Source: Telopea speciosissima
Lineage: Eukaryota; Streptophyta; Magnoliopsida; Proteales; Proteaceae
Direction: 5' to 3'
Length of the DNA: 64,000 nt
Assembly: GCF_018873765.1 (NCBI RefSeq)
Contig: NC_057920.1
Coordinates: 9,251,307-9,315,306 of the forward strand
The notes under the pieces were generated by a model, which was not told the DNA's origin, made no database searches, and saw nothing but the letters and a program-made list of their open reading frames with translations. The position numbers and the translations under genes are program-made. Of this stretch, positions 25,850-48,692 are shown piece by piece (positions within the stretch are counted from its first letter, which is position 1; each line of letters begins with the position of its first letter).

Positions 25850-25889
25850 GAGCTGAATCTTGGATGTAGAGAACTAATGATAAACAATC

Positions 25890-26025
25890 GAGTCTAGATC
25901 CCCTACCTTGTAGGCTGTAGGTAACTATCCAAACCCATCTCACACCGTCCATGGGATGTGGGGACTACATCCAATGGATGGCGTGAAATGGGTTGGGGTG
26001 GTTACCTGCGGAGGAGGGGATTCAA
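25890..26025. mobile_element. Fold-back MITE 3' of U2AF65
   Basis: Arms around AGATCCCCTACC ... AACCCATCTCACACCGTCCA and the reverse complement of GGATGGCGTGAAATGGGTT ... GGGGATTCAATCT form a long imperfect hairpin. A shortened version lies at 44042-44152 in unit B, so it predates the duplication. Confidence 0.55.
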
Positions 26026-27018
26026 TCTCTAAACAATCTACAATTTATGCCTCCCAGTATTATTGCTTCCTTGCACATGCACGTAGGCACACACACATTT
26101 TTTAAAGGGAAAAAGAATGAAATTTGAACGTATAACACCTAAGCTTAGACATGTGGCGCGAAATGATCATCTTACCCCCATGGAAAGGCTAAAACCCCAT
26201 CTCCCATGCTTCTTGCATGTATACTCCCATTGGCCCTCACTAGTGCAGGGGTCATGCGATCAGGTAGTGCTCGTGAGCACACTCGCAAATGTGCAATGCA
26301 CATGCACACAAGGACAAGAACAGGCGTGTGTACACCCACACACATACTCATTTTAAAATACAATTTTCATCTCCACAATAAAAAAAACATCAAATTTGAC
26401 CAATTCAATTAAAATATATATCTCAATTCAGGAGAGTCTAGGGAACTGCCAGGTGTCTCAATGTCTCAAACGCCCACCTGAATCTCCTTGGCAAAAAATA
26501 TTATAAAAATAAAAATTATATAGTTATTTATTTTAGCAAAAAAGAGATTCAAAATATGGGACCATCTTTCTTTGATTTCCACCATCATACGGTCATAGGA
26601 TCCCATGCATCCCAATAAGAAAACCAAGTAAATACCAAAGACATGAAATTGGCCGAGAAAATTTTTTTTTCCTTTATTGAAGAGAAAAAATTTATTTAAA
26701 GGAAGTGACTAAAGGAGCAATTCTTGCCAGCAGGAGAAGGAAATACGAAAAAACAGAGGCATGTTAGGCCACCAAATTCGACAAAGCTTGAATTTGGAGG
26801 CACCCTTAGCTCAAAAATATGCTAACCTATTAATAGTACGAGGAACACAAAAAATGTACACTAGAAAAGTCAGAGAACAAGGAAAATAAATCATCCACAA
26901 CATGTGAAGAAAAGGGCTATGCCCCATCAGAATACATACAACATGAGATGTAGGAAAACTGTCAAGCCTCATTCCTAATTTTCCAAATTTTCCATGACAA
27001 GGATGGCCATTGAATATT

Positions 27019-27192
27019 TTATTTTATTTTTGGAGACAGGAGGGGTATCCGATTTTAGGCCGACTAAATCTTCCCTGGGCTCGTACATGAATCCCGCGCC
27101 ACGCACGAACCGGGAGCTTCTAGACCCTAGTGAGCCTCAGGTGGGTGACCCCAAGAAATTATGCAGCGGCAAAGGTTTGATCACGAGACCTC
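27019..27192 (-). mobile_element. SINE present only in unit A
   Basis: TGAATATT flanks the 174-bp block at 27011-27018 and 27193-27200. Unit B has the uninterrupted site near 45230. On the minus strand it reads with a B-box-like GTGATCAAACC, then CTTGGGGTCACCCACC, and ends in an A-rich tail. This is the layout of a common plant SINE family. It is 5'-truncated, since no A box is seen. Confidence 0.75.
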
Positions 27193-27385
27193 TGAATATT
27201 AAAATCAATAAGATCGATAATATCTTTAAAGTACGTAGATTTGAAGATTAACAAATTTTTTAAATAGGTATCATGACACTCTGAAGAATCCAAGCAAATT
27301 GGGGAGGCTCGCCAACATGCTACTAAGATGAAACAATAAAACAAAAATATGGATAACCGTTGCTAGTTCAAGATTACATAATGGA

Positions 27386-27409
27386 TTCCAACCAAAAAAA
27401 AAAGAAAAA
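27386..27409 (+). mobile_element. Ultra-short poly(A) insertion, unit A only
   Basis: AGATTACATAATGGA is duplicated at 27371-27385 and 27410-27424 around TTCCAACC plus an A-rich run. Unit B (about 45409-45423) has a single copy and no insert. It is a minimal L1-type insertion. Confidence 0.65.
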
Positions 27410-27436
27410 AGATTACATAATGGATAATTAGGAGAC

Positions 27437-27923
27437 TGTCAATCCTCTTCTCAAGATAACTCTTAAGAGGTAATTTAAGAGATAATAATATGCTTGTCTT
27501 TTCATTCATAAGGACTATTAAATAGGGTTGAATAGTCGTTACATAACTTACAATTCATGGCTCCTTCCACATCTAAATAACTAATCCACTAATGATAGTT
27601 ATCCTAATTAACTCACACTCAATATTAACTCACGCACAACACACACATAATAATTAATAAATATAAAATAATAATTAATATATATATAAATAACCTTATA
27701 ATTAGGTACCTAACAATTCTTTTCCCCTTGAAATTGTCCTTGTCTTCAAGGAAGATGGAGAGTCTTTTCTTCATCTTGTACGTTCGTTGCCGTAGAACAT
27801 AGGAGGATATTCCTGTATAGCACCGCGACAGTGGATGAATCCACCGTCGCGGCTCTGATGTCATTTGATACGTGCAAGATAATTTGAAGATAAAATAAAA
27901 TAAAAAAGAAAATATAGGAAAGG

Positions 27924-27958
<35 letters not shown>

Positions 27959-29899
27959 ATATGGGGTTTTCTAATAATCTGTTTGGCTTTTCATTCATAA
28001 TCACTATTAAATTGGACTGCATAGCCGTTACATGACTTACAACTCATGATTCCTTCCATATCTAAATAACTAACCCACCAACAATGATAGTTATCCTATC
28101 TAACTCACACTCAATATTAACTAATAATAGAATAAATTATATAAATCTTTCCTGTAATTATGCCTAATTCAAGGGATACCCCTGATGCTTTAAAAACTAC
28201 AGTCGACCAAAGAACGTTAGACTCTATTAAGTTGAATAATGAAATGACCCTACTACCCTTATACCTAAAACACTTAAAACATCTAAAACCTTTCTCCTTC
28301 TTTGCTTTGACTTACGCACATACGATTTCACGGTTTGATTTCCTTTGTCTTCCTTCAACACAGAAACATAAAACCCACTCATAAGTAAAGAAAGAAAGCA
28401 CCCAAATGCCGTACAACTTTGCCAACTCTGGATGGATAGAAGACGATGCAATCAGTGACACCAGAGTTAGTAGAATTAGCACAAGATTCTGAAGAAGAAG
28501 AAGAAGAATCAGAAGGATGAAACAGATGAGAAATACGTTCCTCCCGTGAGAATGGAAAGGGTTTCACAGAACCATTCTTCAAATTCCGTTAAGGCACAAC
28601 AAAAGTAAATGTCTCGACTCCTCAAGTTCCCGAAAACGCAACTAAAGTTGTCGATGTCGAAGATTACAGACAGAGAGAACAAGGAGAAGACAGCAATGGG
28701 TCTTCTCCTTCCTTCTCCACCTCTCCAAGTTTTCTCTTCTCTCACTTGAGTGAAAATGAGTGAAATGAGAGTGGAGATCTTCGTCGTTGGCCAGGAGAGT
28801 TGAAAGGGAAGAAATTGATGACGGGGAACTGCCGTATTGGTACGATGATGGTGCAATCCATCGCCCCACCTCCACCCCCAACCCTTGTTCTTCATCCCTT
28901 TCATCCCAATTCACCTCCTGTTCCATGATTCGCAGCATAATCAATAGATAAGGGTTGGGCTTCTTTTTACCCTTTTTCTTTTTCCCTTGCAACTCTGAAA
29001 TCCAGATAGATTTAAAGGTCCAAAGGTGATTTAATGGAACATAGGAAGGGTTTGGGAAGAAGAGATTGAAAAAAAAAAAATAATTCAATTTAGGGTGTGA
29101 ACACGCCATGAACGAGAGAGGGTCGAAGCTCTTTCTCAGAGACCTTTCTCGTCCTCTAGCATGTGACTCCCTTCTCTCCCTCTCCCTCTCTATCTCTAAC
29201 TTTTAAACTGCAATTCAGCTCTTAAACAGTTCAATTATATGGAATCTCCAAATTGAGAAGACATTAACATCAAAGTTTGTTTAGAAATTGAAGAACCGAG
29301 TTTACATTTTTCATAGTTTATTCCCATACTTGGCCTTAATTCATCAACGAATTTCTTATCCAGGTCTTATAGAGATATTGAACTCTTAGGGCATCTGTTC
29401 TTGATTTGCAAATTAGTAGTGATGTGGAAGTAATACAGGCTTTGGAAGATAGGAAATTCACACGAAAATCATGTTAGCATTTCTTTCTTTCTTTTTTTCC
29501 TGTCTAGAGAAGCATTTTTCACAGGGGTGGGTACTGGTGCTTGCAATGATGGCGCTGACAGGGGTTGGGGTTGGGGTTGGGCTGCAAGGGTGGTTGGAGT
29601 CTTACGATGGGCGGTCGCGAAGAAGGAGGAGGAGGTAAGGGTAAACATAAGGGTAAAAGGGTAATGTAACTTTCAGGTAAGGTTAACTTAGTTATTATAA
29701 ATTTATTTCTTCTATGATGTCATCACTTAACAACAATTCAAACGAAGTGGGGTCAAGTGTAACCAAGTTTGTGTAATAGGGGAGTTCTGTGAAGTTTTTG
29801 CAAAAACAGGGGTGTCCCTTAAATTAAGCAGTTACAGGGGACGTCTGTGTAATTTACTCTAGTTAATATAAATAAATAACCGTAATTAGTTACGTAACA
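27437..29899 (-). mobile_element. TRIM-like LTR miniature with a nested Mutator-like element, upstream of ssSPT-A
   Basis: On the minus strand the 5' LTR starts TGTTACGTAAC (29899) and ends GTATCA (27866), followed by a Met-tRNA-type primer site TGACATCAGAGCC (27851-27863). The 3' LTR starts TGTTAGGTACC (27715), preceded by a purine tract AAGGGGAAAAGAA, and ends near 27437. The two LTRs share long matching stretches (27492-27635 against 27980-28125). The internal region is only about 150 bp, so there is no coding capacity. The 5' LTR is split by the element at 28130-29859. A GA microsatellite lies at about 27928-27954. Flanking target duplications do not match. Confidence 0.65.
28130..29859. 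mobile_element. Mutator-like non-autonomous element (about 1.7 kb) nested in the TRIM
   Basis: The left end (GAATAAATTATATAAATC, then CAAGGGATACCCCTG) is matched, inverted, by the right end (GAGTAAATTACACAGACG, then TAAGGGACACCCCTG). The imperfect TIR is over 50 bp. The flanks CTAATAATA and TAGTTAATA are a poor 9-bp match. Minus-strand open frames of 131-155 codons (28509-29109) are Ser/Arg-rich and unlike any family I know. A captured host fragment cannot be excluded. Confidence 0.55.
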
Positions 29900-29904
29900 T
29901 TTTC

Positions 29905-32900
29905 TGCTCTCTCTGTCTCCTCTAGCTTCACTCCACTCCAAGAACTCATTTGATTCACTCATTCAGATTATCTCAAACAGCAAGAAGACAGAGGTACAAG
30001 GGGAGACGAGAAGAATTGAGAGATCGAGACGAAGTCCTGGGTATAGAATTTGTTTCTTGTTCATGTTTCAACTGCTTAGGTGTGTCATGTGTTTTAAAAA
30101 TAATCACCTTTTTGATTAGGTTTTGATTAGGTTTTTCTTGATTTGATATTGCTATTTCTTTGTTTTTATTCATTCAATTCATGCATCATACGAGTAGTAG
30201 GTATGTTTCAGTCAAGTTTTTGATCGAATCTGATCATCTGATCAAAGACAGAAGTAGTAAGAATAGATTCTTGTGGCTGACCTAGTAATTTACCTGTCTT
30301 TGTTTTTGTTTTGGCGTTTGTTACCGTGTTTTTGTTCCACATTTCATCTGTGGTGTTGGTTTGATATTAGAGAAGAACATCACTGGCTGCATTAACCCCT
30401 TTATACTCTGCATACTAGTTTTACTTCTAACATCGAGAGAGGTTGATGCTATGAAAAAAATAGCTTTGGAGAGAGTGAGCAATGAAAATCTTGCAAATAG
30501 TTTCTCTCTCTTGTTTGTGCTTGTTGTGGAGTTTATTTTTTCGTATCAATTATGAATTTCTGACAGCAACGGGTATTAAATGGTCATCAATTTTTACTAG
30601 CACTTCTGATGGCCATTTTCTCTTTTTTTCTTTCTTTTTATTTTCTGTAAATTTGCAAAATATTAAAATGTCATTAACAATATTCGTAAAATGGATGAAT
30701 ACCTGCTTGACAGAGTAATTTTTTTAATATTTGTGTTCCTTAGGCATCTAATGTAATGGAATATGGCCCTAGCTGTCATCATGTCAAGGAATTGCAAAAT
30801 CATATTTTGTATATAAGTCTCCATGTTGTCATTGCCGACCCCATTTAGTTGGGATAAGGCTGAGTTGCTGTTTTTGTTGTTGTAGTCTCCATGTTGTCAT
30901 TATCTATTTTATTTATTTTAACACATGTTGCTTCTTTAAAATCAATTAGGAGTAAACATAAGTTTTCACTTCTATTTCCTCAAGCATGTTCTATTCAATA
31001 GAGACCTCAAGCATGTGCCCTTCAACATAGACCTATAGCTACTCATGAAGGAAATGATGAAATTAGAAAGTAGAGGTGCATTAAATGTATGTTTTGATAG
31101 ACTGGAATCACATGATGAACAAAACATGTTTGATTTATTATTGGTTTTTCCCCCATGTGATGTTTATGTGGTATTGTATGACAGATCCATTGTGTAAAAA
31201 GTATAAGTAAATAATTGAACCATGGACACTAGATTTTAACCTGTCTATGTCACGTGAGCTGAATTAGTGGCTTATTGCTTTGTACTGAATCTGTATTTTA
31301 GGTTTGTGACCTTTAAAAATCTATAAAGGAATGTAGTTACCTAAAATTTTAGTTTTCATCAGCAATATATTTCTTTATGCGAGGATTTGTTGTTTTCTTT
31401 TTTGACACACTATATATATATATAGTGCATATTAGCACTATAAAATCATTGTTGCATCTACATCCATTTCCAATTTAAATGTAGCTTATTTAACAAAGAA
31501 GGCTGTAAACATCGTTTTTAGAGGAGTAGATTTATTATGTGAATGAAAACCGGAAGGCCAATAGATCTCATGCAGCAAAAAAATACATCAAAAGATATAG
31601 CACGAATACGTGTAACTTTTTTGTTTGTTTGTTTGTTTTTCTTTCTTTCTAGTCATCGATCTCTATGTGTTTGGTCCCTCTTTCTTTTCCGGTTTTCTTG
31701 TCTAGGATTGTGGATTCCTCATGTTTGTAGGTTTTTTCTCTTATAACAGTTCATTAACATTTTATGTGATCTATATGTTTATTTCTAGGTTTCAAGCCAT
31801 GAACTGGATTCAACGCATGATCTACATGTACAATGTTACTTTTGGAATGTACGTGTTGGATAGGTGGGAGCGTTACTTATTTAGTATCCTTCAATATTAA
31901 AATTTCTTTTTAATTAGTTATTTAAGGTTTATAATTGCTCAATTGAGTCTAGTATTCGGATAGAGAGCACCAAAATTTGATATTTGAATCTTCATAGTTA
32001 AAATAAGAGCTATATCTAACTCTTTATTATTTCCTCCCTTTCCATTACTTTTTTTCTGGGAATTTATTATCAACTTTATTGTTTGTCTTTTGTGTTCAAC
32101 ATAAATTGGTGATATTGAATGGATTGGGGAATCACAAAGTGTCTATGGTTGAGGATTATCCTTTTAACACCTGCAGAATAGCTTGGGTCGTAGAAAATTA
32201 GGACAATTAGGGTTCAAACTTGCAATTTGAAGAAAGATTTTGATTGGGAGATAACAATACATTGAATTTGATAATATAGAGAATTAAAGAGATCAAAGAA
32301 ATTGAATAAAAGCTATGACTGCTCTATTGCCATTCTGGAATTCCGAAATAGAGTAATTGAAATCAGTAATGAGGGTTTTAATGAGGATTTGGCTATAAAA
32401 GGGGGAAAAAAAAGGGTTTTGTTTGGGTTCTGCGGCATAGGATGGTGAAATTGGATATGGATTTCTCCAATTGTTTGAATCATTACAAGAAGGTTGCAGA
32501 TTTTAATGTCTGCTAAGGTTAGGTTATGGATGGGGGAAACTGGAGAGTAAGGGGTTCATGAGAACAGGATTGAAGAAGAGGAAAAACAGCAGAACTGTCT
32601 ACAGGAAGCACAGAACAGTACAAGGGAAATAGAGGATAGCAGTACTAAGTTCTAGAACAGTATGAGAAGAGTGGGTGATGTGAGGGTTGGTGTAGAGACA
32701 GAATAGGAGAATTAGAAAACACATTAAAGATGTGAAGAAGGAATTACAGAATATTTTAGAGAGAAGAAAAGAAGTACATGTTCAGGGCAGTTCTCTGAAA
32801 TCCTCCTTCATAGAACCCAATTTGTTCACATGGGGAGAGCAGAAATATATAACATGATCCAAACACAATGAGGCCCACCTTTTAATAACTCACAGCTTAC

Positions 32901-33353
32901 ACAAGCTCAGACTTAACCCTAAGTGAAACTAAACCCCTTATATGATTAAACTCACGTTAATGGCCCACTCTTATTGAAAAACACAAAAAGGATCCCTCAT
33001 AATGAAATTGAACACGACCGCATAGCTGGAATTTAGCAAGGCAACCCTAAACTGTTGCATCATTTTGAGGTCTTAATTTGGATTTTTTATAACTTATAAA
33101 AAATATCATGCACAAGATATCTGAGAGAAATTGTAGGTTTTAAGGGCTAATGTCATGAATGACTCATCATTTCTGGTCACCAACAATTGTCTAAGAATAA
33201 AACCTTTTTTTTGTTGTTGGGGGAGGGGGATTGGGGATTTGATGTTATTATGGTTGTGAGCTCTTAACTACTGTAGATTTATTGGTGATCGTCCTGCTAT
33301 GGTTTGTTTTCTACAATGGATCACGATCCGCAGCTGAGTTCTACAGAAGGTAA
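29905..33353 (+). CDS. Small subunit of serine palmitoyltransferase (ssSPT), copy A
   Basis: A noncoding 5' exon (about 29905-30040, donor GTATAG) is followed by exon 2 (31789-31883, ATG at 31799) and exon 3 (33277 to the TAA at 33351-33353). Coding parts 31799-31883 and 33277-33353 give 53 aa starting MNWIQRMIYMYNVTFG, then WERYLFNLLVIVLLWFVFYN and GSRSAAEFYRR. Plant ssSPTs are tiny ER membrane proteins of about this size with one transmembrane segment (here about residues 29-42). They bind LCB1/LCB2 and raise the rate of the first step of sphingolipid synthesis. Residue 7 is Met where the family and copy B have Lys, and residue 22 is Arg where Trp is usual. AG|GTAATA at 33348-33355 could act as a donor, with a conserved acceptor at 33826 giving a one-residue-longer end. 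The upstream promoter region differs from copy B. Confidence 0.85.
30816..30901 (+). mobile_element. 50-bp RTE LINE tail insertion with 18-bp target duplication
   Basis: AGTCTCCATGTTGTCATT occurs at 30816-30833 and 30884-30901. The 50 bp between is the conserved RTE 3' end (CCCATTTAGTTGGGATAAGG, then GTTG repeats). The same insert is in unit B near 46997-47063, but with the right duplication deleted, so it predates the 15-kb duplication. Confidence 0.8.
31978..32798. other. About 800-bp stretch in ssSPT-A intron 2 absent from copy B
   Basis: Unit B passes from CACCAAAATTTG directly to TCTCAGAAATCCTCC (about 48110-48135), whereas unit A carries about 800 extra bases. I see no coding sequence, LTR ends or target duplication, so a deletion in B is as likely as an insertion in A. 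Confidence 0.6.
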
Positions 33354-34179
33354 TATTTTACTCCTTTTTCCCTTGTTAGATTCCTTGAGGTCAGTTTACA
33401 TATTTCCTTTTCGGGTTTTATGGCTACAACTATTAATTTCATGGAGTCATTTTCAGTTTAGGATTTTGAAATGCGAGTCCATGGGTTTGATGAAGCTTGT
33501 ATCATTCTATTTGACTTCTGGATTTCCACTAATGGCAAGATTTCTTTACTTGGACAAACACATTAGATCTCATTAGAAGTCCATTTGGGAGAATATTTTT
33601 CCCCCCGTGAAGTCACTCTTGTGCTTGGATGATTTAAATGTAAAAAAGATGGTGTTGAATGCTTTAGAATGATTAGGAGAATGAGGTGGGCATTTAGGTA
33701 TGCATGTTCTTTGCTAAATCAAGTAAGAAAACTTTGAGTCCTTATAAATAATTTCTTTCTGCTCAATGAGAACTGGGATCGTTGTTTCCTTGGTCAAAGT
33801 TGGTGTCCTGTCTTTTCTTATGACAGGAATTGACCACCCATCAGCGACACGTTATTCCAAGAAATTAAAAGCAAACATCTGTGGACCTCTAAGGATGTTG
33901 GATGGTACTGATTGTTGTTCAATATCCCACTTATAAGTAACAAAGGTTGATGCTTCTATTTGGGAGTTGAGTTATGAATGAGAAAAATAACGAGTTACTG
34001 AACTAGGAATGAATATCTAAAACACTTAATGGCATAAGCCTTGAAAAGGATGCTGTTGTGTAATTGAGTTTGAACTTCCATATCCTTGTTTTGTGGCAAA
34101 TGGAAACCAAAAAATCGGTATTGTTCGGATGAGATTACATATTTACATTGATGCTAATGTCAGCAATGAGCTCAACAAC

Positions 34180-34311
34180 TCAATATAACCATGGCCTATT
34201 AGTTGGTGAAATTGTCAACTGATAGGTAATGAGCTCAACAACTAAATATGACCATGGCCTATTAGTTGGTGAAATTGTCAACAATGAGCTCAACCACTAA
34301 ATATAACCACT
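34180..34311. repeat. Short direct repeats at the duplication junction
   Basis: GAGCTCAACAACT, then CCATGGCCTATTAGTTGGTG and AAATTGTCAAC, occur about two and a half times before the junction at 34311. Unit B has one copy near 49505-49557. The repeat may have helped form the breakpoint or may record slippage during repair. Confidence 0.65.
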
Positions 34312-34643
34312 CCTCTCCTTATGGTACACCTCCGTGCTTGAATATTATGTTGCTATTAGAAATTTCGCTGAACAACTTTTGAGCATTATATTATTTTAGA
34401 GAATACCATGTAGCTGTATTTTCCAAATATGCATTTTTGAAAATCTCAAGGCGTATGTCTATACGTATGAAGTTTTTGGATCGTAGTATGTAAGTAGATT
34501 TGATTGGTTTGACTTTGCCATTCTAGTTCCTTATCTTCTTCCTTTAATATTTTTTTTTAATCATTCCTTGTATCCTAGTCTGTTGACTAGTCAAATGCTA
34601 TGTTAATGCTTTTTATGATTTATTGTTTAAATATATCTTGCAG

Positions 34644-37600
34644 GCGTAGAGACTATGATCGAGATCGAGAAGGGCGGAATCAGCATAGATCTGAATCTCG
34701 CTCAAAGGGTAGATCTCATCATAGATCAAGATCTGGTTCTCCATCTCGATCCTGGTCAAGATCAAAGAGGTAACCTTACATGTCACAGTTCATTTCACTG
34801 TTGATTCAGGTTGAGCATGGATCTATGCCTCTTTGTTACCCAATTTAGTGTATGTTATTCTATAAGCTTTGTACTTTGTATCCAACCTTCACTGATTTGT
34901 AGTGGTTCAGCAATCGTGACTATTGTGACACCCGGGGCCCCATTGTTGACATCTTTGCACTGGTTTCCATGATAAACTAGTCTGTGTTACACTACGTCTT
35001 AGCAGCTGTGTTGATTGAGAAATACATTAGCTAATTTAGTTGAGCTCCTGGAGAGAGTTTGTATGCATGCACTTGTCATTATTTCCTTTACCATTTCTTC
35101 TGATAAAGACTCCCATTGTAACTGTTCGAGGTTGGTATAATTTTACCTCTGGTTAATCTATTTAAAACTCTGCCAGCCATTTGCCTTTTCTAGCCTAATG
35201 TTTCTCCCATCTCGTGGTCCACTCATGGTTTGAGTTTTGCATTAGTGCATAGTTCAGCTTCAAATCCTCTTACTACTCCTTCTTGAACGCATTTTGTCCG
35301 GTTCGGTCCACTTACTGATGGTCTATCTGTCTGGTTTGAAGGAGGACTTGTGGTCCTGTTGTCCGGAAAAATAATACATACTTGATGGTCTATCGATCAG
35401 TCATTAGATTTCAAAACACCTCTGGTCCTTGAAATAATACTCATTTCAGGCAGTGCAGACTGTTGACCGGATAGTTTGACTATGGTTTGACTTACCATCC
35501 AGTAGTCCAAAAACTTTGTTTTGGGGTTGTGTGCAGTATGTGTGTGGGTGTGGGGGGGGGATGAGTATGTCTGATGCATTTGAAGGATAAAGTGATATAT
35601 TTTGTTAGGACCAACACCTATGATATTAAGTTTAAATTGTAATAATTATCTATGTATCTTAGTAGTCTTCCTAATGTAGTCCTAGGTAGGAGTAATCCCA
35701 CTAGGAACCAGGGTAATAGGATCTCTTAACAAGGCTGGCCGATTGGGACAGCTTAGGCTAATTAGGGCAGAATTAGGGTTATAAATAGGGTTTCGACTTA
35801 GGGTTTTTTTGGTAATGATTTGCAGAATTTTATGAGTCTAATGGTATAAGTTGGATCAAATTTGGTTGAGGTTGGAATTCTAGGGTTTTGGGTAGGATGC
35901 CTTATGAAAATGGACTGTTTGTAAGATCTAGGGTTTAGGGGCAGATTTTAGGAAAGAGGTTTATAGGGTATTAATGGGCAGGTCTAGGGGGTTATTTTGG
36001 TATAAAGAAGTTAGGGTTTGGATGAGTTACAAAATTCTGCAATTTAGGGCAGAATTGGATTTAGGGTTTTAGGGTTCTAATGGATCTATGGATTAATGGA
36101 AGGGGTGATAATAGGAGTAGATGGAGCTTAGGTTAGAGGATTAGAAGAAGAAGGTTAAATGCTGAATTAATAAACTACTTACTTGGAAGATTAAATCTTC
36201 AATGGTAGCAGCTTTGAAGAACTAGAAGAAGGACCTCCCGATCTACAAGATGCAAGGAGTCGGAGTCCACCAATCCCTTCACCTTGATATTACCCACAAG
36301 GTAGCCTTGATATTACTCACAAGGTTCACTTAACAGAGCAGAGCAGCAGCTATGGCAGCAAACAAAAGCTTTTTCATTAATCAAATTCGTGTCCAATGTT
36401 GGCCTCCCTTACAAACTTATATAGAAGACTCAAAAATAGACTTAGACACTAAAAAGGAATGGCCTAACCTTAGCCTTAACCTATTAGGCAACTTAAACTG
36501 ACTAGGAAACTCAAATAGACTCAAAATAGAGTCCTAATGACTTAAAACAACTTAAACTACTTAAAATAAAGAAGATTCCCTAGCAGCCAATAGGATATAA
36601 GAACCTCTTAGCCAATAGGATCACTTCACTTAAATTAAACCAATTGAACCAATTGGATGCAACCAATTTAAACCGGTTCAATTAAAAACACAAAATAAAA
36701 ACTAAGTATTGGGCTAAGCCCGTATGCAACCTATATACCCCTATTTCAGGCCCACTAAAGTGGCCTAATACATAGAAAACCCTTGGGAACAAAGGCCCAA
36801 CATATATATATCCCAACCTTACACTTATTCCCAATGAAACAAGCCCTATTTGATGATGAATCTGCATCACTTCCGTTCATCGTTATGGTAATCAAAACTC
36901 TTTTCTGGATTAACTAGATAATTTAACTTGTCATTGAAGCAAACGGATTAGTGGTTTTGACATGACACCTCCAACAACTGCATTGATGCCAGGAGCTGCT
37001 GCCGCCGCCGCCGCTGCTGCAGGTGCATGGTCTTTCTTTTCTAACTTATGCCTTTGTTTCACTGCCTATCTATTTCTTTCCTTTAGCTTGGAGAGTCGTA
37101 TCAAGTTGCTTGGTATCGGTTGGTAAGCCATATTCATTTGCTTTTACATTGATAGTTGTAGCAAGTCCAGGCTGCCATCTCTTGATTGGGGTCTGTTGTT
37201 TTATTTATTTATTTATATTCATGAACTAATTCTGAAACTGAATGGTTTTGGGTTGGTTCTTGTTTTTGGTGTTTGTTTCTATGTTTATGTTTTGTTGTAA
37301 GAAGGCAATGTTGGGCTACTTGTCCCACTGTGCTGCCAATGGGCGTGAGCCGACTTCTGTAGCTTTTATGTACAAGGAGGTAATGTAGCTCTAAATAGGA
37401 GAAGGATCCTATTAGAGGCCAAGCAATAGGATCTAAAAGGGGCTGCTGGTTTGATGGGAAGAATAGGTAAACTAGGGCAGAATTAGGGTTAGGATTAGGG
37501 ATTTGAGCTAGGGTTCTATTTAGTAATGGTGTGCAGGTCAAAAGGAAGCTAATGGGATAGGTTTTGAATAGGTTCAAACAAAAATTTAAAATTCTGAAAT

Positions 37601-40600
37601 CTTAGGGTTAGGGTTTCGGGTTTTAGGTTTTAGAAAATAGGTTGAATTTAGGGTTTGTAGTTGGAGATTGGAGTAGGGCTTTTGTTCGAGTATTAGAGGA
37701 GCTGGGGGGAAGGTTCGGTTGCAGCAGGGGGGGGTTTCTGATGGCTGGTTATGCCTAAACAGGAATTTAGGGTTTCTTGGGTTTATGGGGGATGAGGGGA
37801 TTTTAGGGTTTTGAACTAAGGATGGGGGTAGTAGTCTGGATCGAGTGTAGGACTGATGGAGGGGGAACTGTGATCAGAATTTGGTAAGATTCTGATAAGG
37901 GGTTGTTGCTGATAGGGCTTAGATGATCTAGGGTTTTACAAATTCAAACAGAAAATAAGAGGGATCGAATGGGGGGAAGAAAAATGGATGGAACAGAAAA
38001 TTAAACTTCAAATTTACAGTAGGAATCCACCGGCAGCAGCTTGAAAATTGAAGGAATCTCCCGATCTTCTCGATGCAAGGAGTCGCAGAAGTCCACCCAC
38101 CCTATCCACCTTGAGATCCACAAGGATATACACTCAGAAAGGAGCAGGAACAGCAGCAGCAACAATCGGCCAGCAGCAAAACAGTCTTTTTTTTATTCAA
38201 AATTCAATGTGGGGGAGCCTCCATGATTTACTTTATTTGTAATATGGCTTTATGCCAAATCCTAATACAACTTAATGACTTCTTCACAAAATCGTGGAAG
38301 GGAAGGAATTAAAACTAAAACTAATAACTTAAAACAGTAAAAGACCTATTTAACCCTACTAACTTAAGTTAAAAGATATCTAACTTAAAACAACTAATTT
38401 AATAGAAGATTTCATATTAGCCAATAGGATTTAAGGACCTATTAACCAATAGGAACACTTTACTTAAATTAGACGAATTGAACCAATTGGCTGCAACCAA
38501 TTCTAAACCGGTTCAGTCTAAAAACAGGAAAATAAACTAAGTATGGAGAATAATAATCCTAATCTATGGCTCCCTAATCAAGCCCTAAGTTCAGGACTTC
38601 TTCTTCTTCCTACTTGGAGCTGCATCAGGAGGATTCAATGCACCGGTTTGATGGTTCTTGTTCGTCTTGAACCGGCACCTATTGCCTTTTTTGGTAGTCT
38701 TTACGAATATTTCCTCCAGTACCTGAAAATGCTATATTCATTTCATCTCCTTGATATATTTTGATTACCAGAGGCTAGAACATGCTTATTTTGTTGAGCA
38801 CATATGAAGATGAGGAGGTGCATATTGATCTGTCACTCATAATCAAATAGATCTTAATTTTTCCTTTACACTACTATTTAATTTAATTGGCCTTTTCAGG
38901 TCAATTGACTGGGGCCACTCCAGCCATCCCTGGAACGTTTCCAAACATGTTACAGTTTCCTGGACAGGTTAGTCAATTTTTTTTAACATTATTGTGATAT
39001 TTATATTAATGTATCAGATCAGTGAACTTCTTATTCAATGCTTCTGGATGTGTCCAGCTGGCAACCCCACTTTTTATGCACCCTCAGGCAATGACTCAGC
39101 AGGTATGATGTATTAGTACTTTATGGGTGTAGTTCATCCCCTCTTTGAAACATTTGATGGCTAAGTGTCAAATTTTCTTTTGTTCTTAGGCAACGAGACA
39201 TGCTCGGCGGGTTTATGTTGGTGGCCTTCCTCCCTCTGCAAATGAACAGGTGATTCATCCTTTGACTGTTGCCATTAGTCCAATTGTTGTTCTTGTATTG
39301 TGGCTGTTTTTCTGTGAATTGTTGTGGTTGTTTTGGCTTCTTCTTCTTCTCTTTTTTTTTTTTTTTTTTTTTTGGATTTGTGGTTGTGGATAGGAGGGGG
39401 TTGTTTGGTTTAATGGGGTGCAGAGTTTCTGTTAAAGGAAATAATAAACTGCTGAGGGTCAAACTGCACAAGATAGTTTGAATAGTTTGTGTGAATTGTT
39501 GCTGTTGTTGTTGTATGTTAAGACTCAATGAATCATTTGCATTTTCCTATGTCATTGTTTCTGTAATAAGTTCAGTCTTTTATTTACTTGTGAAATCAGT
39601 ATCGTTTTTCTATCGTAACAATAATATGTTAAATTTTGAGAAAGTGGATAGTTGTCACTGTTTCGGAATCAGCATCTCATCCATTTAAACTTCAGATTTT
39701 AAGGTTGAGGAAGCTAGATGGTTGACTGTCCTGGAACATATTGTTGAGTCCCTTTGGAACTTAACAGTAGTTCCCAGAACTTGTAATCTTCTTTACTATT
39801 TTAGCCAGATGTTGTGACCTGTTATTGTTCACTTACGATTGTCACTTTCAGTTTATCTGCATAATTACTCTCAAAAGCATCAGTGGTTTTTCAGCATGGT
39901 TAACAGTTCTTGTTTGAAGCATTGTTAAACTTATTGATAGCTCAAAGTCTAGATTATCCAAGCTGGATGATTGATTACTGAATCTTTATATTGTTGTTTC
40001 CTCAGTCAGTGGCAACTTTCTTCAGCCAGGTTATGGCTGCAATTGGAGGAAACTCTGCCGGACCAGGTTTGAATTCTTGCCCCCTCCTCCTCCCCCTCCC
40101 CCACCCACACCCTTTGGTAGATTACTTTGAATTCATATATTTTGGTACCTGTTTTTTTCAGGAGATGCTGTCGTTAATGTATACATCAACCATGAGAAGA
40201 AGTTTGCATTTGTTGAGATGAGGTCTGTTGAGGAGGCTAGTAATGCAATGGCCTTGGATGGTATTATTTTTGAGGTAGTATATTCTTGTTTCTGTCTCAA
40301 TCAACAATCCATAAGAGCACTTCATTACTTGGAATATCCCCCGTGGTGAAGTCAAAATGACTTCAAACCGTGCATGTTTTCATTTACCTGATAGTTTGAC
40401 TTCTTTATGTTGATCCTTGTGTGTTGACAGGGCACCCCAGTGAAGGTGAGGAGGCCAAGTGATTACAACCCTTCTCTTGCTGCAGCACTTGGGCCAAATC
40501 AACCCAATCCCAATCTCAACCTAGCTGCCGTTGGGTTAACACCAGGTTCTGCTGGTGGACTCGAGGGTCCTGATCGCATCTTTGTGGGTGGTCTTCCATA

Positions 40601-42644
40601 CTATTTCACGGAAGCACAGATACGGGAAATGTTTGAATCATTTGGACCTCTTCGTGGTGTTGATCTTGTCAAGGACAGGGAAACAGGGAACTCAAAAGGC
40701 TATGCTTTTTGCGTGTATCAAGATCTGTCAGTGACCGACATTGTTTGCGCAGCTCTCAATGGAATAAAGATGGGTGATAAAACTCTCACTGTTAGACGCG
40801 CAAACCAGGGTGCTTCGCTGCCCAAACCTGAGCAGGAGAGTATACTATTCCAGGCGCAGCAACAGGTAGCATTGCAGGTAAGGAACAATCGTTGTTCACA
40901 TTTATCCATTATTATGGACGGTCGAAGCCTCTTTAACTTGTTTCTGTCTCAATCAACAATCCATAAGAGCACTTCATTACTTGGAATATCCCCCGTGGTG
41001 AAGTCAAAATGACTTCAAACCGTGCATGTTTTCATTTACCTGATAGTTTGACTTCTTTATGTTGATCCTTGTGTGTTGACAGGGCACCCCAGTGAAGGTG
41101 AGGAGGCCAAATGATTACAACCCTTCTCTTGCTGCAGCACTTGGGCCAAGTCAACCCAATCCCAATCTCAACCTAGCTGCCGTTGGGTTAACACCAGGTT
41201 CTGCTGGTGGACTCGAGGGTCCTGATCGCATCTTTGTGGGTGGTCTTCCATACTATTTCACGGAAGCACAGATACGGGAAATTTTTGAATCATTTGGACC
41301 TCTTCGTGGTTTTGATCTTGTCAAGGACAGGGAAACAGGGAACTCAAAAGGCTATGCTTTTTGTGTGTATCAAGATCTGTCAGTGACTGACATTGTTTGC
41401 GCAGCTCTCAATGGAATAAAGATGGGTGATAAAACTCTCACTGTTAGACGCGCAAACCAGGGTGCTGCTCAGCCCAAACCTGAGCTGGAGAGTATACTAT
41501 TGCAGGCGCAGCAACTGGTAGCATTGCAGGTAAGGAACAATTGTCTTTCATATTTATCCATTATTATGGACGGTCTAAGCCTTTTTAATTCTTCATGTTG
41601 GGTTATAACTTTTTGTAGAAGTGCATTTAGAAACTTGCTTTAAGCCTCCGGTCTTTGGGGTTATTAATGAGTGGTTTCACTTTGGCAGAGACTTGTTTTT
41701 CAAGGTGGTGCACTACCTACCAAGGTTATAAGCTTAACAGAGGTTGTTAGTCCAGATGAACTGAAGGATGATGAGGAATATGAAGACATAATGGAGGACA
41801 TGAGAACAGAAGGCGGAAAATATGGTGAATTCTCATGATTCTGATCACTTCTTTCTGTATATATTTTTTTAAAATCATTTCCCAGATATTAATCTTCTTT
41901 ATCTTATATCTGTCTGTTTTACAGCCTTTTGTTGTACCACATTCTACTATAGAGAATCAGGCCTAACCCACATGCTGAAGATCCAATCTTTCCGTCTTTA
42001 TCTAAAATTGGTTCTCACCCCCCCCCCCTCAAAAAAATAAAAAGAAAAAAAAAAAACCCAACCCATCCGCCCACCCAAAATTCATTTTGGTGACTTGGGA
42101 TTACTTGAAAATTCTTTTTAATTTTGCTTCTGCAGGGAATCTGGTGAATGTAGTCATTCCACGTCCAGGACCAAATGGCGAGTTATCTCCAGGTGTTGGG
42201 AAGGTTCGTGGAGAGATTTTGTTAGTAGTTTTTCTTTTTCATAATTGCAGTAATATACATTTGCTATCCTGGTCCATTCGCTTTTGTGTGATGGGCTATG
42301 ATAGCATAGCATTGAAGATGCTGTATGTTATTGTAAATATCCTGATCTATATGCATGATCCCGAGACACAGAGGACGCTGCTATATTTTATTAGAAAGGG
42401 TGCATTTCTCCTTTTGTTTCTGAGGGGTCTCAACTGCAGTCATTTTATTGAAGCCTCAGCAAAGAAAAAGAAATAATACTGACTACTAGTTTTTATTGCT
42501 TCACAGGTGTTCTTGGAGTATACTGATACAGATGGAGCCACAAAAGCCAGGCAAGGGTTGAATGGAAGGAGATTTGGCAGGAATTTAGTCACCGCCAACT
42601 TTTATGCAGAGGACAAGTTCTCCCAGGGAGACTATGATGGATAG
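34644..42644 (+). CDS. Headless U2AF65 copy 2 (exons 3-13 only, RRM2 exon doubled)
   Basis: Exons: 34644-34769, 36940-37022, 38900-38967, 39058-39102, 39190-39249, 40006-40066, 40162-40274, 40431-40877, 41083-41529, 41689-41824, 42136-42203, 42507-42644. Every exon is open and every GT-AG site is kept, but exons 1-2 and the promoter are missing. Exon 10 occurs twice (447 nt each, phase 0). From the first in-frame Met (36962, MTPPTTALMPG) the reading frame is 547 aa: 9-Ala run, RRM1, RRM2, RRM2 again, UHM ending at 42644. It would lack the RS domain and the U2AF35-binding N-terminus. Changes from copy 1 include R to W in the RS exon, LL to MF in the first RRM2, and G to R after the R-x-F motif in the UHM. 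It may be a transcribed chimera, a new isoform gene or a young pseudogene. Confidence 0.75.
35672..36869 (-). mobile_element. Solo LTR (1198 bp) in intron 3 of headless U2AF65
   Basis: CTTCC flanks the element (35667-35671 and 36870-36874). Unit A has the empty site. On the minus strand it starts TGATGCAG and ends CTACATTA. It has a TATA-like promoter region (TATATAAGTTTGTAAGG) before a likely R region and an AATGAAAAAGC stretch, with no primer site or gag/pol. A solo LTR left by recombination is the simplest reading. Confidence 0.85.
37381..38627 (-). mobile_element. Solo LTR (1247 bp) in intron 4 of headless U2AF65
   Basis: GGAGG flanks it at 37376-37380 and 38628-38632. The corresponding intron in unit A is uninterrupted (near 20856-20866). 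Ends are TGATGCAG and CTACATTA on the minus strand, as in the element at 35672, but the sequence belongs to a different subfamily. It matches the outer LTR starting at 61868 (CCAAGTAGGAAGAAG, GGGCTTGATTAGGGAGCC). Confidence 0.85.
40285..41588 (+). repeat. 652-bp tandem duplication containing U2AF65 exon 10
   Basis: The segment starting CTTGTTTCTGTCTCAATC at 40285 repeats at 40937. Each unit has the end of intron 9, all of exon 10 and the start of intron 10. The hybrid intron between the exons (40878-41082, 205 bp) starts GTAAGG and ends TTGACAG, so both exons are spliceable. Unit A has a single exon 10. Confidence 0.92.
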
Positions 42645-45600
42645 TTATTGCTCACTCTAACATTCTCTCTAGAATTTGCAACTCACTTTCCCTCAAATTT
42701 TGTTACTGTAACATAAGATCTAAAGACATAATTTTCTTTTTCCTGTTTGGATAGATAAGCATATTATTTCAACTAGTAAATTGGTTTCTGAATTCTGTTA
42801 GCTAGACTCGATAGTTTAGTAAATGATTTTTTTGAGCAAAACTTGTGCAGCTTAGGTTTCTGAGTCTTTTTTCAGAACACCCACTGACCCACCATTATTT
42901 AGTCGTGTGAACTGGTGATTTGGCAGGTTGAACACTGAATATTTAGGAGGCATTGTATAACTACTTTCGAACATTACAGGTCTGAAAGAGGTGCCTTTGT
43001 CAATTTTTGTCAACTTTGTATGAAGGTTTCTTTCAGAAACCAATCTACCATTCGTTTTGGTATTTTATGGTGGTTTTGCCCAGATATAATGCTAGTACTT
43101 TCTTTTCATAAAACAGAGGGTGCAGGGTTTTAGAAAACCCTCTACGTAAATGATTATCTCCAACTGAAAACTCAGTCTCTTATAACATATTTTGAAGCAC
43201 ACATGGATGGTGATGGCGGTCAAGCTTCTTTCGTGAAGTTGTACATCTCTTGTAGGCAATGTCAAACACACTTGCGGTCAAGCGTTAATCTAGTGGAGGA
43301 GGCACAATATGTTGCAACTCAGGTGTGCAAGTGGAGAACATTGTGGTTTTCAGTTGGAATTTTTCCTTTTCATGAATCCATTTGGGGGTGAGATGCTTGG
43401 TCAGAAAAAGAGCTAAATCATCTGTGCTTAAATGGCCACTTGATATGGAGCCTAAATAATTTGTTTAACTGGAAGTAAGCCCTAATGCATGATCAAATCT
43501 AGTATCTTGAGATATTGCATGTCTTAGTCTGGTCTTGAGAAGATGATAAATACCACAATTATGAAATATTATAAGGTAAAATATTTTAAGATGCTAATTT
43601 AATTAAGGGGCGTTGTTCTCTGTGCCGCAGCGCAGGCTGCGCCCAGGCACATGGGGGTGGGCGCAATGACCACCCTGCCCCCCTGAGTGGCAGGCCCATG
43701 TGCTTGGCCGCAGCCTACGCTGCAACCCAGAGAACATTCTCCCTTTAATTAAATACCCCTTTGTATTGGCATCTAAAGTATCTTATGAATGTCCATGTAT
43801 GTGTATTAGTATATTCTAATCATCATTATGCATTCTCCCAACTCTGTGCAGAAACTAACAGTTTAGATAGTAAACATCATGAAAATGTTCATGATTTAGA
43901 AGTGTCTTGTGACTCTTGGAAACATCACAAATATTGACACTAATAAGTAATCATATTATGAACTCAATAATATCCAAAACATCGAAAAAGTCGGAATTAC
44001 GAGCCGAATCTTGGATGTAAAGAACTAATGATAAACATGAGTCTAGATCCCCTCCCCTGCAGGTAACTACCCCAACCCATCTCACACCGTCCATGGGATG
44101 TGGGGACTACATCCAATGGATGGTGTGAAATGGGTTGGAATGATTGGGGTCCAATTTCTAAACAATCTACCAATTTACATTGCTTCACACGCACAAATGC
44201 ACATGCAAGTAGGCACACACATACACACTGTTTAAAGGAAAAAAGAACGCAACTTGGACGTGTGGCACCTATGTTTAGACACATGGCGTGAAATGATCAC
44301 CCTGCCCCTATGGAAAGGCTGAAACTCCATCTCCCATGCTTCTTGCGTGCATACTCCCATAGACCCTCACTAGTGCAGGGGTCATGCGACCAGGTAATGC
44401 ACGTGAGCACACGTGTAAATGTGCAATGCACATGCACACAAGGACAGGAACAGGCGTGTGTACACCCACCACACACATACACTCTCATTTTAAAATACAA
44501 TTTTCATCTCCACAATAAAAAAAACATTAAAATTGACAAATTCAATTAAAAAATATATCTCAATTCAGGAGAGTCAAGGGAACTACCAGGTGTCTCAATG
44601 TCTGAAATGCCCAACCTGAATGTCCTCGGCACAAAACATTAGAATCATGTCTTCGAGAAGGCCGGCAACGGCAAGCATCATATTTGCTATCTTTTCTCTT
44701 TAACTTAGAAAATAAATATGAGAATAAAGAAAATAGAGAATAAAGAAAATAAAAAATAAAGTAAATACCAAAGCTAGGGTAAAAAATGAGAGCAACAAGA
44801 GAAAAAATTTATTTAAAGGAAGTCAGCAAAGAAACAACTCTTGCCAACAAGAGAAGGAAATACGAAAAATAGAGGCATGTTTGGTCACCAAATTTAACAA
44901 AGTTTGAATTTGGAGGCACCCTTGGCTAAAAAATGTGCTAACCTATTAGTAGTATGAAGAACATATAAAAAGTGTACAAGGAAAGAATATCGTCCTTCAA
45001 TAACTTTTTTTTTTTTTTTCTTGATTAAAAAAAAAAAAAAATTAACTAGAAGAAGATAGAAATATCTACATTGTCTTTGGTATGTACAAAATCTTTACTT
45101 CATCTGATAGCAAAAAGGGCTATCTTAATCACTTGGGTACAGTCAAAGTACTAATAGGCAGGGTTGAACATGACTAAATACAGCTCGACTCCGAGTTTTC
45201 CAAATTTTACATGACAAGGATGACCATTGAATATTAAAATTAGTAAGATCAAGAACGTCTTTAAAGCTTCATAAATATGAAAATTAACCAAATTTTGAAT
45301 TAGGTACAATGAAACTTTGAAGAATCCAAGCAAAGAGTGGAGGCTTGCCAACATGCTACTAAGAAGGATCAATAAAACAAAAATATAGATAACCATTGCT
45401 AGTTCAAGATTACATAATGGACATAAAAGATTAGAAGATAGATGGCAAGAACACAATAACGAATTGAGTGCCAAGGCATTTGAACTACAACACCATAAAA
45501 AGAGTTTAATCTCAAAAAGCAAATTGAGGTTGCAAAGCTTGGCCAAGATAGGATCAAGAGGGGGTGGGAAGCTCCACCACACGGAAAACCAAAAGTGGAA

Positions 45601-46100
45601 ATGATAAGTCAATTTCTTTTTTTTGGAGAATGATAAGTCAATTTCCTTTTAAACAAATGAAACACATGAACCCACAACACTTGGATATTATAAAGAAGTT
45701 AAAACATAACATGCTTTAAAAAAAGCCGGCATTGTGTTCAACCCTTCCCGCTCTATCCATTGGACACAGTTGTTAGTTCAAAGCCAGCGAGCGGCGTGCT
45801 CAACCCTCTCTCCCATAAAATTTAATGAAACAGGCTTTTTTGTCAAAGAATTGTATAAGTGCTTACTTTTCAAAATTTTATTTTTCCTCTAAAATATTCT
45901 GAATGAGAGCTACCAAACGGAGCCTTATTGAAACATCTCGGAAACCTATGTTCATTTTCCAAAGAATCATTTTACACGCTTTCACTCCACCTCCAGACCG
46001 CCGAGATCGTGTTGTTGCTCTTATCCTCTCTCTCTCATGCTCTCTCCAATTGTCGGATCCATGTCCCATTTCAAAGCGTGAATCCGAATGAGAAAGTTTC
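42645..46100. other. Spacer between headless U2AF65 and ssSPT-B; no gene seen
   Basis: It contains the U2AF65 3' flank, a Mutator-like MITE (43607-43743), a one-unit minisatellite (43932-44000), a truncated fold-back MITE (about 44042-44152), a GC-richer MITE-like block (44210-44480) and A/T homopolymers near 45007-45045. The stretch 45430-46100 has no counterpart in unit A. It probably holds the original ssSPT promoter, including a CT-rich leader. Confidence 0.6.
43607..43743. mobile_element. Mutator-like MITE (137 bp), unit B only
   Basis: A 9-bp duplication TTTAATTAA flanks it (43598-43606 and 43744-43752). Unit A has the empty site. The ends are inverted repeats of about 26 bp (GGGGCGTTGTTCTCTG against GGGAGAATGTTCTCTG, both followed by GCAGCG). 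Nine-base duplications with long TIRs are typical of Mutator-like elements. Confidence 0.85.
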
Positions 46101-46105
46101 GTTTC

Positions 46106-48692
46106 GTTTATGCTCTCTCTGTCTCCTCTAGCTTCTCTCGACTCCACGAACTCATTTGATTCACTCATTCAGATTATCTCTAACAGCAAGAAGACAGAGG
46201 TACAAGGGGAAACAAGAAGAATTGGGAGATCGAGACGAAGTCCTGGGTATAGAATTTGTTTCTTGTTCAAGTTTCAACTGCTTGGGTGTCATTTGTTTTG
46301 AAAATGATCACCTTTTTGATTAGGTTTTTATTGATTTGATATTAATATTTCTTTGTTTTTATTCATTCAATTTATGCATCATACGAGTAGTAGGTATGTT
46401 TCAGTCAAGTTTTTGAAACTTGATCGAATCTGATCATCTGATCAAAGACAAAAGTAGTAAGAATAGATTCTGGTGGCTGACCTAGTAATTTACCTGTCTT
46501 TGTTTTTGTTTCGGCGTTTGTACCGTGTTTTTATTCCACATTTCACCTGTGGTGTTCGTTTGATATTAGAGAAGAACATCACTGGTGTTATTTGCATTAA
46601 CCCTTTTATACTCTGCATACTAGATTTACTTCTAAGATGCTATGAAAAATAGCTTTGGAGAGAGAGAGCAATGAAAAACTTGCAAATACTTTCTCTGGTT
46701 TATGCTTGGTGTGGAGTTTATTTTTCCTATCAATTATGAATTTCTGATAGCAACGGGTATTAAATGGTTATCAATGTTTACCAGCACTTCTGATGGCCAT
46801 TTACTCTCTTTTTTTTTATTTTCTGTAAAATTGCAAAATATTAACAAGTCATTAACATTATTCGTAAAATGGATGAATAGCTGCTTGACAGAGTAATTTT
46901 TTTAATATTTGTGTTACTTAGGCATCTAATGTAATGGAATATGACCCTAGCTGTCATCATGTAATGGGATTGCAAAATCATATTTTGTATATAAGTCTCC
47001 ATGTTGTCATTGCTGATCCCATTTAGTTGGGATAAGGTTGAATTGCTGTTTTTGTTGTTGTAAACATGTCTTGCTTCTTTAAAATGAATTAGGAGTAAAC
47101 ATAAGTTTTCACCTCTATTTCCTCAAGCATGTTCTATTCAATAGAGACCTCAAGCATGTGCCCTTCAACATAGACCAATAGCTACTCATGAAGGAAATGA
47201 TGAAATTAGAAAGTAGAGGTGCATTAAATGTATGTTTTGATAGATTGGAATCACATGTTTGATTTATTATTGGTTTTTTCCCCCATGTGGTGTTTATGTG
47301 GTATTGTATGACAGATCCATTGTGTAAAAGGTATAATTAAATAATTGAACCATGGAGAATAGATTTTAACCTGTCTATGTCGCGTGAGCTGAATTGGTGG
47401 TGCATTGCTTTGTACTGAATCTGTATTTTAGGTTTGTGACCTTTAAAAATCTATCAAGGAATGTAGCTACCTACAATTTTAGTTTTCATCAGCTATATAT
47501 TTCTTTATGCGAGGATTTGTTGTTTTCTTTTTAGACACACTATATATATATATATATATATTGCATATTAGCACTATAAAATCATTGTTGCCACTACATC
47601 CATTTCCAATTTAAATGTTGCTTATTTAACAAAGAAGGCTGTAAACATCGTTTATAGAGGAGTAGATTTATTATGTGAATGAAAACTGGAAGGCTAATAG
47701 ATCTCATGCAGCTAAACAAGACATCAAAAGATATAGCACAAGTATGTGTAACTTCTTTCTTTGTTTGTTTTTTTTTTCTTTCTTTCTAGTCATCGATTTC
47801 TATCTGTTTGGTCCTTCTTTCTTTTCCGTTGTTTCTAGTCTAGGATTGTGGATCCTCATGTTTGTAGGTTTTTTCTCTTATAACAGTTCATTAACATTTT
47901 CTATGATCTATATGTTTATTTCTAGGTTTCAAGCCATGAACTGGATTCAACGCAAGATCTACATGTACAATGTTACTTTTGGAATGTACATGTTGGATAG
48001 GTGGGAGCGTTACTTATTTAGTATCCTTCAATGTTAAAATTTCTTTTTAATTAGTTATTTAAGGTTTTATAATTGCTCAATTGAGTCTAGTATTCGGATT
48101 GAGAGCACCAAAATTTGGTACTTCTCAGAAATCCTCCTTCATAGAACTTCCAATTTGTTCCCATGGGGAGTGCAGAAATATATAACATGATCCAAACACA
48201 ATGAGGCCCACCTTTTAATAACTCACAGCTTACTCAAGCTCAGACTTAACCCTGAGTGAAACTATACATCTTATATGATTAAACTCACTTTAATGGCCCA
48301 CTCTTATTGAAAAACACAAAAAGGATCCCTCATAATGAAATTGAACACGACCGCCTAGCTGGAATTTAGCAAGGCAACCCTAAACTGTTGCATCATTTTG
48401 AGGTCTTAATTTGGATTTTTTATAACTTATAAAAAATATCATGCACAAGATATCTGAGAGAAATTGTAGGTTTTAAGGGCTAATGTCATGAATGACTCAT
48501 CATTTCTGGTCGCCAACAATTGTCTAAGAATAAAACCTTTTTTTTTTGTTGTTGGGGGGGGGGGGGGAGTTGGGGATTTGATGTTATTATGGTTGTGAGC
48601 TCTTAACTACTGTAGATTTATTGGTGATCATCCTGCTATGGTTTGTTTTCTACAATGGATCACGATCCGCAGCTGAGTTCTACAGAAGGTAA
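46106..48692 (+). CDS. Small subunit of serine palmitoyltransferase (ssSPT), copy B
   Basis: The noncoding 5' exon ends at 46246 (donor GTATAG). Exon 2 is 47926-48020 with ATG at 47936, and exon 3 runs from 48616 to the TAA at 48690-48692. The coding parts 47936-48020 and 48616-48692 give 53 aa: MNWIQRKIYMYNVTFGMYML, DRWERYLFNLLVIILLWF, VFYNGSRSAAEFYRR. It keeps the family Lys at residue 7. Arg at residue 22 replaces the usual Trp of the family LDWWERYLF motif, as in copy A. Its role is the same as copy A: activator of serine palmitoyltransferase in the ER. It has kept an upstream region not disturbed by the TRIM, so it may be the better-expressed copy (inference). Intron 2 is about 800 bp shorter than in copy A. 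Confidence 0.87.

Follow-up and report, generated by a model that had tools for sequence, protein, structure and literature searches.

A 64,000-nucleotide stretch of the Telopea speciosissima genome (contig NC_057920.1, referred to below as C5, positions 9,251,307 to 9,315,306; the window hereafter, with positions counted from its first letter) contains a 15.3-kb tandem duplication on the + strand, one break of which lies in intron 2 of a gene for the splicing factor U2AF65 and the other in the last intron of a gene for ssSPT, the small subunit of the sphingolipid enzyme serine palmitoyltransferase. The tandem unit thus ends inside two different genes of the same strand. In the middle of the duplication a normal donor has been parted from its acceptor, and 1294 nt further on a normal acceptor has been parted from its donor. 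To judge from the sequence, what lies there is a genuine in-frame chimeric gene, ready for splicing, in which the first exons of one ssSPT copy (ssSPT-A) precede a U2AF65 copy (U2AF65-B) that lacks its own first two exons and is called headless here. We think it probable that this composite gene, built by the duplication, yields a fusion mRNA, and that its chief effect would be to donate a promoter and 5' exons to the headless U2AF65.

The principal features are as follows, with the basis of each in brackets.

16743..24381, + strand: complete U2AF65-A, 13 coding exons, 570 aa; exons 1 and 2 (16743-16865 and 17948-18183) lie to the left of the duplicated unit (gene model, profile)
19013..34308, + strand: unit 1, comprising U2AF65-A from inside intron 2 to exon 13, then ssSPT-A minus its last exon, with some 90 bp of repeats at the junction included (self-comparison, end alignment)
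31799..31883, + strand: ssSPT-A coding exon s1, the start of the fusion reading frame (gene model; Pfam PF11779 on the fusion)
33277..33349, + strand: coding exon s2 of ssSPT-A, whose closing donor is the one found ahead of s3 in the three other loci (gene model, paralogue comparison)
34220..34308, + strand: stretch at the junction, with local repeats over about 90 bp ahead of the start of unit 2 at 34309 (end alignment)
34309..49556, + strand: unit 2, comprising headless U2AF65-B, then ssSPT-B as far as the inside of its last intron (self-comparison, end alignment; about 6% substitutions in U2AF65 introns)
34644..34769, + strand: U2AF65-B exon 3, whose acceptor at 34644 is the orphan one (gene model)
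47936..49914, + strand: complete ssSPT-B, 3 coding exons (47936-48020, 48616-48688, 49881-49914), 63 aa; the last exon lies to the right of the duplicated unit (gene model)

The fusion reading frame and its splice sites

Joining ssSPT-A exons s1 and s2 (158 nt) to U2AF65-B exons 3-13 (1792 nt) gives 1950 nt, which stay open throughout and encode 649 aa plus a stop, and every junction of this model is GT-AG. The critical join runs from the donor cagaag/gtaata after 33349 to the acceptor atcttgcag/gcgtag at 34644, the phases of which match. These two sites, their phase, the two lengths and the presence of two RRM2 exons had been given by a first-pass annotation of this DNA, and every one of the numbers was reproduced when the gene models were rebuilt. 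The composite intron would measure 1294 nt; its intact neighbours have 1192 nt (last intron of ssSPT-B) and 1152 nt (intron 2 of U2AF65-A). In Pfam searches the predicted fusion protein matches SPT_ssu-like (PF11779) over residues 1-44 at 54.7 bits (cut-off 29.8) and has four RRM_1 stretches where U2AF65-A has three; it also matches U2AF_lg (TIGR01642) at 713.9 bits (cut-off 310.3). A phase match is by itself a 1-in-3 event. The case for a fusion goes beyond such coincidence because both sites are normal splice sites, each of which lost its own partner through one and the same duplication, and the support from the DNA and the splice sites is stronger than the first-pass annotation had argued.

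The unit boundaries, which come from self-comparison and from alignment of the unit ends, account for both losses. Since the unit stops at about 49556, inside the intron that precedes s3, ssSPT-A is without its last coding exon, and its other end, at about 19013 inside U2AF65 intron 2, leaves U2AF65-B without exons 1 and 2. U2AF65-A and a full-length paralogue on C4 agree in the position and phase of the intron that precedes exon 3. U2AF65-B accordingly starts at coding exon 3 of 13, not at exon 5 as first annotated, and its N-terminus is incomplete for a U2AF65 large subunit. The duplication junction falls at 34308/34309, where the end alignment revealed no long homologous stretch shared by the two unit ends. 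At the outer sides U2AF65-A and ssSPT-B both persist in complete form, with the chimera in the middle.

The remaining exons of U2AF65-B complete the model.

36940..37022, + strand: exon 4, acceptor AAG (CAG in copy A); 9 nt shorter than in A, in frame (gene model)
38900..40274, + strand: exons 5-9 (38900-38967, 39058-39102, 39190-39249, 40006-40066, 40162-40274), which include RRM1 (gene model, Pfam)
40431..40877, + strand: exon 10a, first copy of RRM2 (self-comparison, gene model, Pfam)
41083..41529, + strand: exon 10b, second copy of RRM2 (self-comparison, gene model)
41689..42644, + strand: exons 11-13 (41689-41824, 42136-42203, 42507-42644), UHM region and stop (gene model)

The doubling of exon 10, a phase 0-0 exon, is due to an internal tandem duplication of 652 bp at 40285-41588, the copies of which are 97.2% identical; exons 10a and 10b differ by 9 nonsynonymous and 3 synonymous changes.

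The lost last exon of ssSPT

The identity of the donor after 33349 depends on what normally follows it, and here the other ssSPT loci of the genome are informative. A genome search returned 12 matches, all 12 of which were scored: the s1 and s2 exons of the window and those of two genes on C10 account for four each, a further match is an s2 remnant on C4, and the other three (two on C2, one on C6) are weaker. Three of the four loci that have s1 and s2 also have s3, ssSPT-A being the sole exception. Both C10 genes carry the third exon behind a tttcag acceptor, with an s2 donor of gtaatt or gtagtt, and the last-exon peptides are SHLKGQLG in ssSPT-B, SHLKVKLG in C10a and SHLKVMLG in C10b (C10b was spliced by script and C10a read by eye). 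A tblastn search of the window for this C-terminal exon matched only 49879-49911, with nothing between 33350 and the junction; as s3 of ssSPT-B (49881-49914) was first chosen by eye, its own match in the window is circular. Independent support for s3 comes from the C10 genes and from Arabidopsis ssSPT (7yjk_C), which aligns to residues 1-55 of reconstructed ssSPT-B, reads RHL where ssSPT-B has SHL, and ends its alignment at residue 76 of a 77-residue chain.

On this comparison AGAAG/GTAATA after 33349 is the normal donor of the last ssSPT intron. The first-pass annotation had ssSPT-A end at a possible donor there; the donor is real, and what had been missed is that a third coding exon once followed it and has been lost. 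The local TAA, which that annotation took as an alternative end, closes a reading (FYRR and stop) that would be the product if the intron were retained. Its other candidate, an exon at 33827, lacks support: the AG acceptor is displaced in C10a, one of the two paralogues, and conservation of the segment does not clearly exceed that of the rest of the intron. This exon was rejected as a natural ssSPT end, the site not being conserved in place in both paralogues.

Divergence and constraint

The introns of U2AF65-A and -B differ at 213 of 3467 aligned sites (6.1%), a divergence of about 6% that sets the age of the duplication. Divergence across the ten compared introns is 4.2-7.3%, and gene conversion therefore does not account for how alike the exons are. 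In a three-way comparison with the C4 paralogue over 2048 intron sites, 66 differences are unique to A and 45 to B, with 17 ambiguous. The two units also carry different insertions, two of them in introns of copy B.

Outside exon 10, copy B has acquired 5 nonsynonymous and 3 synonymous changes and copy A 1 and 8, with 2 sites ambiguous. When the neutral rate of B is taken from the introns, its 5 nonsynonymous changes compare with 14.4-16.3 expected (P 0.0042-0.0011), and a codon model with branch lengths set by the introns gives, again outside exon 10, an omega for B of 0.36 or 0.32 (p 0.007 or 0.002). The intron calibration was adopted in view of two other results. The pairwise ratio of nonsynonymous to synonymous divergence (Ka/Ks) between A and B outside exon 10, 0.144, suggested strong constraint, and was dropped as a sign of it once the outgroup had placed most synonymous changes on A (8 vs 3) and the codon model with free branches had given an omega for B of 1.14. 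The same free-branch model rejects an omega of 1 for copy A (p 1.5e-5). The deficit in B is concentrated in exons 6-9 and 11-13, where a single nonsynonymous change stands against 10.0-11.3 expected, the division into these exons and exons 3-5 having been made post hoc.

The open frame itself was set against simulated neutral decay (1512 nt, exon 10 taken once, 4000 runs per setting). The rates of insertions and deletions (indels) rest on our own halving of 25 intron gap events, 80% of which were assumed to break the frame. At the main indel rate 0.4-0.6% of runs ended with neither a stop nor a frameshift; with a low rate this share was 5%. On our reading, RRM1 and the UHM of copy B are probably still in use.

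Several observations weigh against this account of the composite gene. Counting both ambiguous sites as nonsynonymous changes in B raises P to 0.025, and in the free-branch codon model neutrality of B is not rejected (p 0.93), with only 3 synonymous B changes to work from. No constraint is detectable in exons 10a and 10b (omega 1.0-1.2 with intron-set branch lengths), in exons 3-5 (4 nonsynonymous changes vs 4.4-5.0 expected) or in the ssSPT-A part, which differs from ssSPT-B by 3 nonsynonymous and 0 synonymous changes; these, in 156 nt, are too few to inform on selection. Continued use cannot be demonstrated for either RRM2 copy, for the RS part or for the ssSPT leader. The acceptor of U2AF65-B exon 4 reads AAG where copy A has CAG. 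Finally, the sequence upstream of 29901, back to 27386, is unrelated to that of ssSPT-B (45422-46106).

This last point bears directly on the promoter. The two ssSPT copies share only about 140 bp before the first donor, a stretch that includes one further candidate exon.

29980..30040, + strand: likely 5' untranslated exon of ssSPT-A, donor 30040/30041, with 29980 as a provisional start (likeness to ssSPT-B from 29901, donor context judged by eye; inference)

Since the upstream regions are unrelated, the promoter region of one ssSPT copy has changed. When both versions were compared with the fetched flanks of the paralogues, no match was found except 20- and 27-base matches for the A version.

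Proposed working of the locus and competing explanations

In the proposed scheme, transcription of ssSPT-A would be followed by removal of the 1294-nt composite intron, giving an mRNA for the 649-aa protein. Exon s2 should splice to U2AF65-B exon 3, since the interval between the two has no other acceptor known to be genuine. Transcription of the chimeric gene seems likely on this arrangement, and the headless U2AF65 would in the first place gain a promoter and 5' exons. Its RRM1 and UHM part would still be made, either as the fusion or from a methionine further down, for instance in exon 4. A soluble headless U2AF65, produced if s1 and s2 were skipped or if translation began at Met 103 in exon 4, would be just as compatible with the pattern of constraint. 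The genome was searched for a retrocopy of the fusion mRNA by means of the spliced junction (26 bases, at most 3 mismatches); none was found, which says little about transcription.

Near-identical units in tandem order are a known assembly fault, and two haplotype copies laid end to end would give this type of arrangement. Here that explanation is scarcely credible: an intron divergence of 6.1% (213/3467) is far above the heterozygosity of 0.76% given for T. speciosissima in passages of PMC13080361, and each unit has insertions of its own. A silent relic, in which the composite gene is untranscribed or makes no protein and owes its open frame to chance and youth, must be taken more seriously and is still rather unlikely. 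It would explain the free-branch omega near 1, the lack of constraint on the RRM2 copies, exons 3-5 and ssSPT-A, the unrelated upstream regions of ssSPT-A and -B and the two insertions in B introns; it sits poorly with the near absence of nonsynonymous change in exons 6-9 and 11-13 (1 vs 10.0-11.3 expected, on the post hoc split) and with a frame that neutral decay would leave intact in only 0.4-0.6% of runs, or 5% at the low indel rate.

It is also conceivable, if improbable, that U2AF65-B is made alone from a promoter in or near the junction, starting at ATG 34615 or at the exon 4 methionine, with ssSPT-A a separate gene truncated at the local TAA. Exon 3 can be read in frame from ATG 34615 (MIYCLNISCRRRDY...), constraint is limited to exons 6-9 and 11-13, and a truncated ssSPT-A could work, given that passages of PMC6148460 describe a core of 33 residues as required for activation by human ssSPTa. 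Yet this ATG is inherited intron sequence, present in U2AF65-A too, the promoter is only postulated, and the exon 3 acceptor is intact downstream of an unpaired normal donor. Splicing of s2 to exon 3 within a composite gene is accordingly the reading that we prefer.

Could the fusion protein tether a splicing factor to the ER?

The in-frame fusion proposed in the first-pass annotation is borne out by the DNA and the splice sites; the further idea that its product is a splicing factor tethered to the endoplasmic reticulum (ER) is weak. The N-termini of ssSPT proteins are cytoplasmic and one membrane span is suggested (PMC6148460, a review). With such a topology the U2AF part would lie in the ER lumen unless the orientation flips, and the RS region, RRMs and UHM could not act in splicing from there. 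The net charge of the fusion is +4 after the span and +1 before it, compared with +2 and +2 in ssSPT-B, and by the positive-inside rule, by which the turn of a helix is inferred from flanking charge, the arginine-rich stretch after the span could turn the helix. The natural luminal topology, together with the lack of constraint in the ssSPT-A part and exons 3-5, makes an ER-tethered splicing factor unlikely; more probably, what the fusion provides is a promoter and 5' exons. It strikes us as very improbable that the 649-aa protein is made and kept as an ssSPT membrane anchor on a U2AF65 body with two RRM2 copies, its helix turned by the arginine-rich flank and its RNA-binding part exposed to the cytosol or nucleoplasm at the ER or inner nuclear membrane.

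Relation to known systems

Tandem duplication is described as creating chimeric gene structures and shuffling regulatory elements in Drosophila yakuba (Rogers et al. 2017, PMC5460883). Here too a partial tandem duplication has made a chimeric structure, with the 5' exons of one gene joined to the 3' exons of another; in contrast to that case, the locus is from a plant and known from its DNA alone, its partner genes are others, and both breaks lie in phase-matched introns. Copy B shares with the plant U2AF65 family the RS stretch, RRM1, RRM2 and UHM region, and departs from it in lacking exons 1 and 2, in having two RRM2 copies and, if spliced as modelled, in its ssSPT N-terminus. Likewise ssSPT-A matches the domain of the ssSPT family (PF11779; Arabidopsis 7yjk_C) but has lost the last coding exon. 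Read-through, or cis-spliced, chimeric transcripts arise when two neighbours on the same strand are carried on one RNA. In contrast, the DNA itself is rearranged here (34308/34309), and no terminal exon need be skipped. A literature search returned no paper with both U2AF and ssSPT and, by title and start of abstract, none on an ssSPT-U2AF65 fusion; one for Telopea speciosissima and U2AF returned only an unrelated match.

As a natural case of tandem duplication that shuffles exons the locus is a clean one: it has two intron breaks, matching phase and both parents intact and adjoining, and the steps that lead from the junction to a new gene can be tested on it directly. Expression of the fusion would bring together two unrelated cell systems, and the double RRM2 exon, relaxed as it is, would then amount to a second round of domain shuffling within one gene.

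Paralogous loci and minor observations

Two more copies of U2AF65 lie in tandem on C4 (C4:14722418-14746886 and C4:14750723-14765033), the first more diverged and more spread out. One C4 copy, D, was considered as a recurrent case of headless U2AF65 and rejected, as matches to exons 1 and 2 were found further upstream; its layout is that of a full-length old copy. Its exon 4 and exon 10 boundaries are poorly modelled, and D was left out of every rate test. About 64 kb beyond the C4 copies is a lone ssSPT s2 exon (C4:14829091), with no s1 detectable in 9.9 kb around and before it; given this proximity, the gene order looks common to C4 and C5. An insertion in a U2AF65-B intron (window 35664-36874) is 97% identical to C4:14753484-14754700, and part of it (36262-36871) is 77% identical to window 61939-62512 on the opposite strand.

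Within ssSPT, copy A has Met7 and Val19 against Lys7 and Met19 in copy B. In the alignment codon 19 of ssSPT-A (window 31853) falls on the Met that precedes LEPWER in human ssSPTa, and the C10b paralogue has Gly at this position. On a register of numbering that we presume to be correct, codon 19 fits the Met25/Val25 site. Passages of PMC6148460 give that site as the position of acyl-CoA specificity in ssSPT. Around exon s2 the ssSPT copies of the two units differ by only 1.2% (6/499, at 33000-33500 vs about 48340-48840), compared with 4-5% in neighbouring windows, and this low divergence may reflect conversion or constraint.

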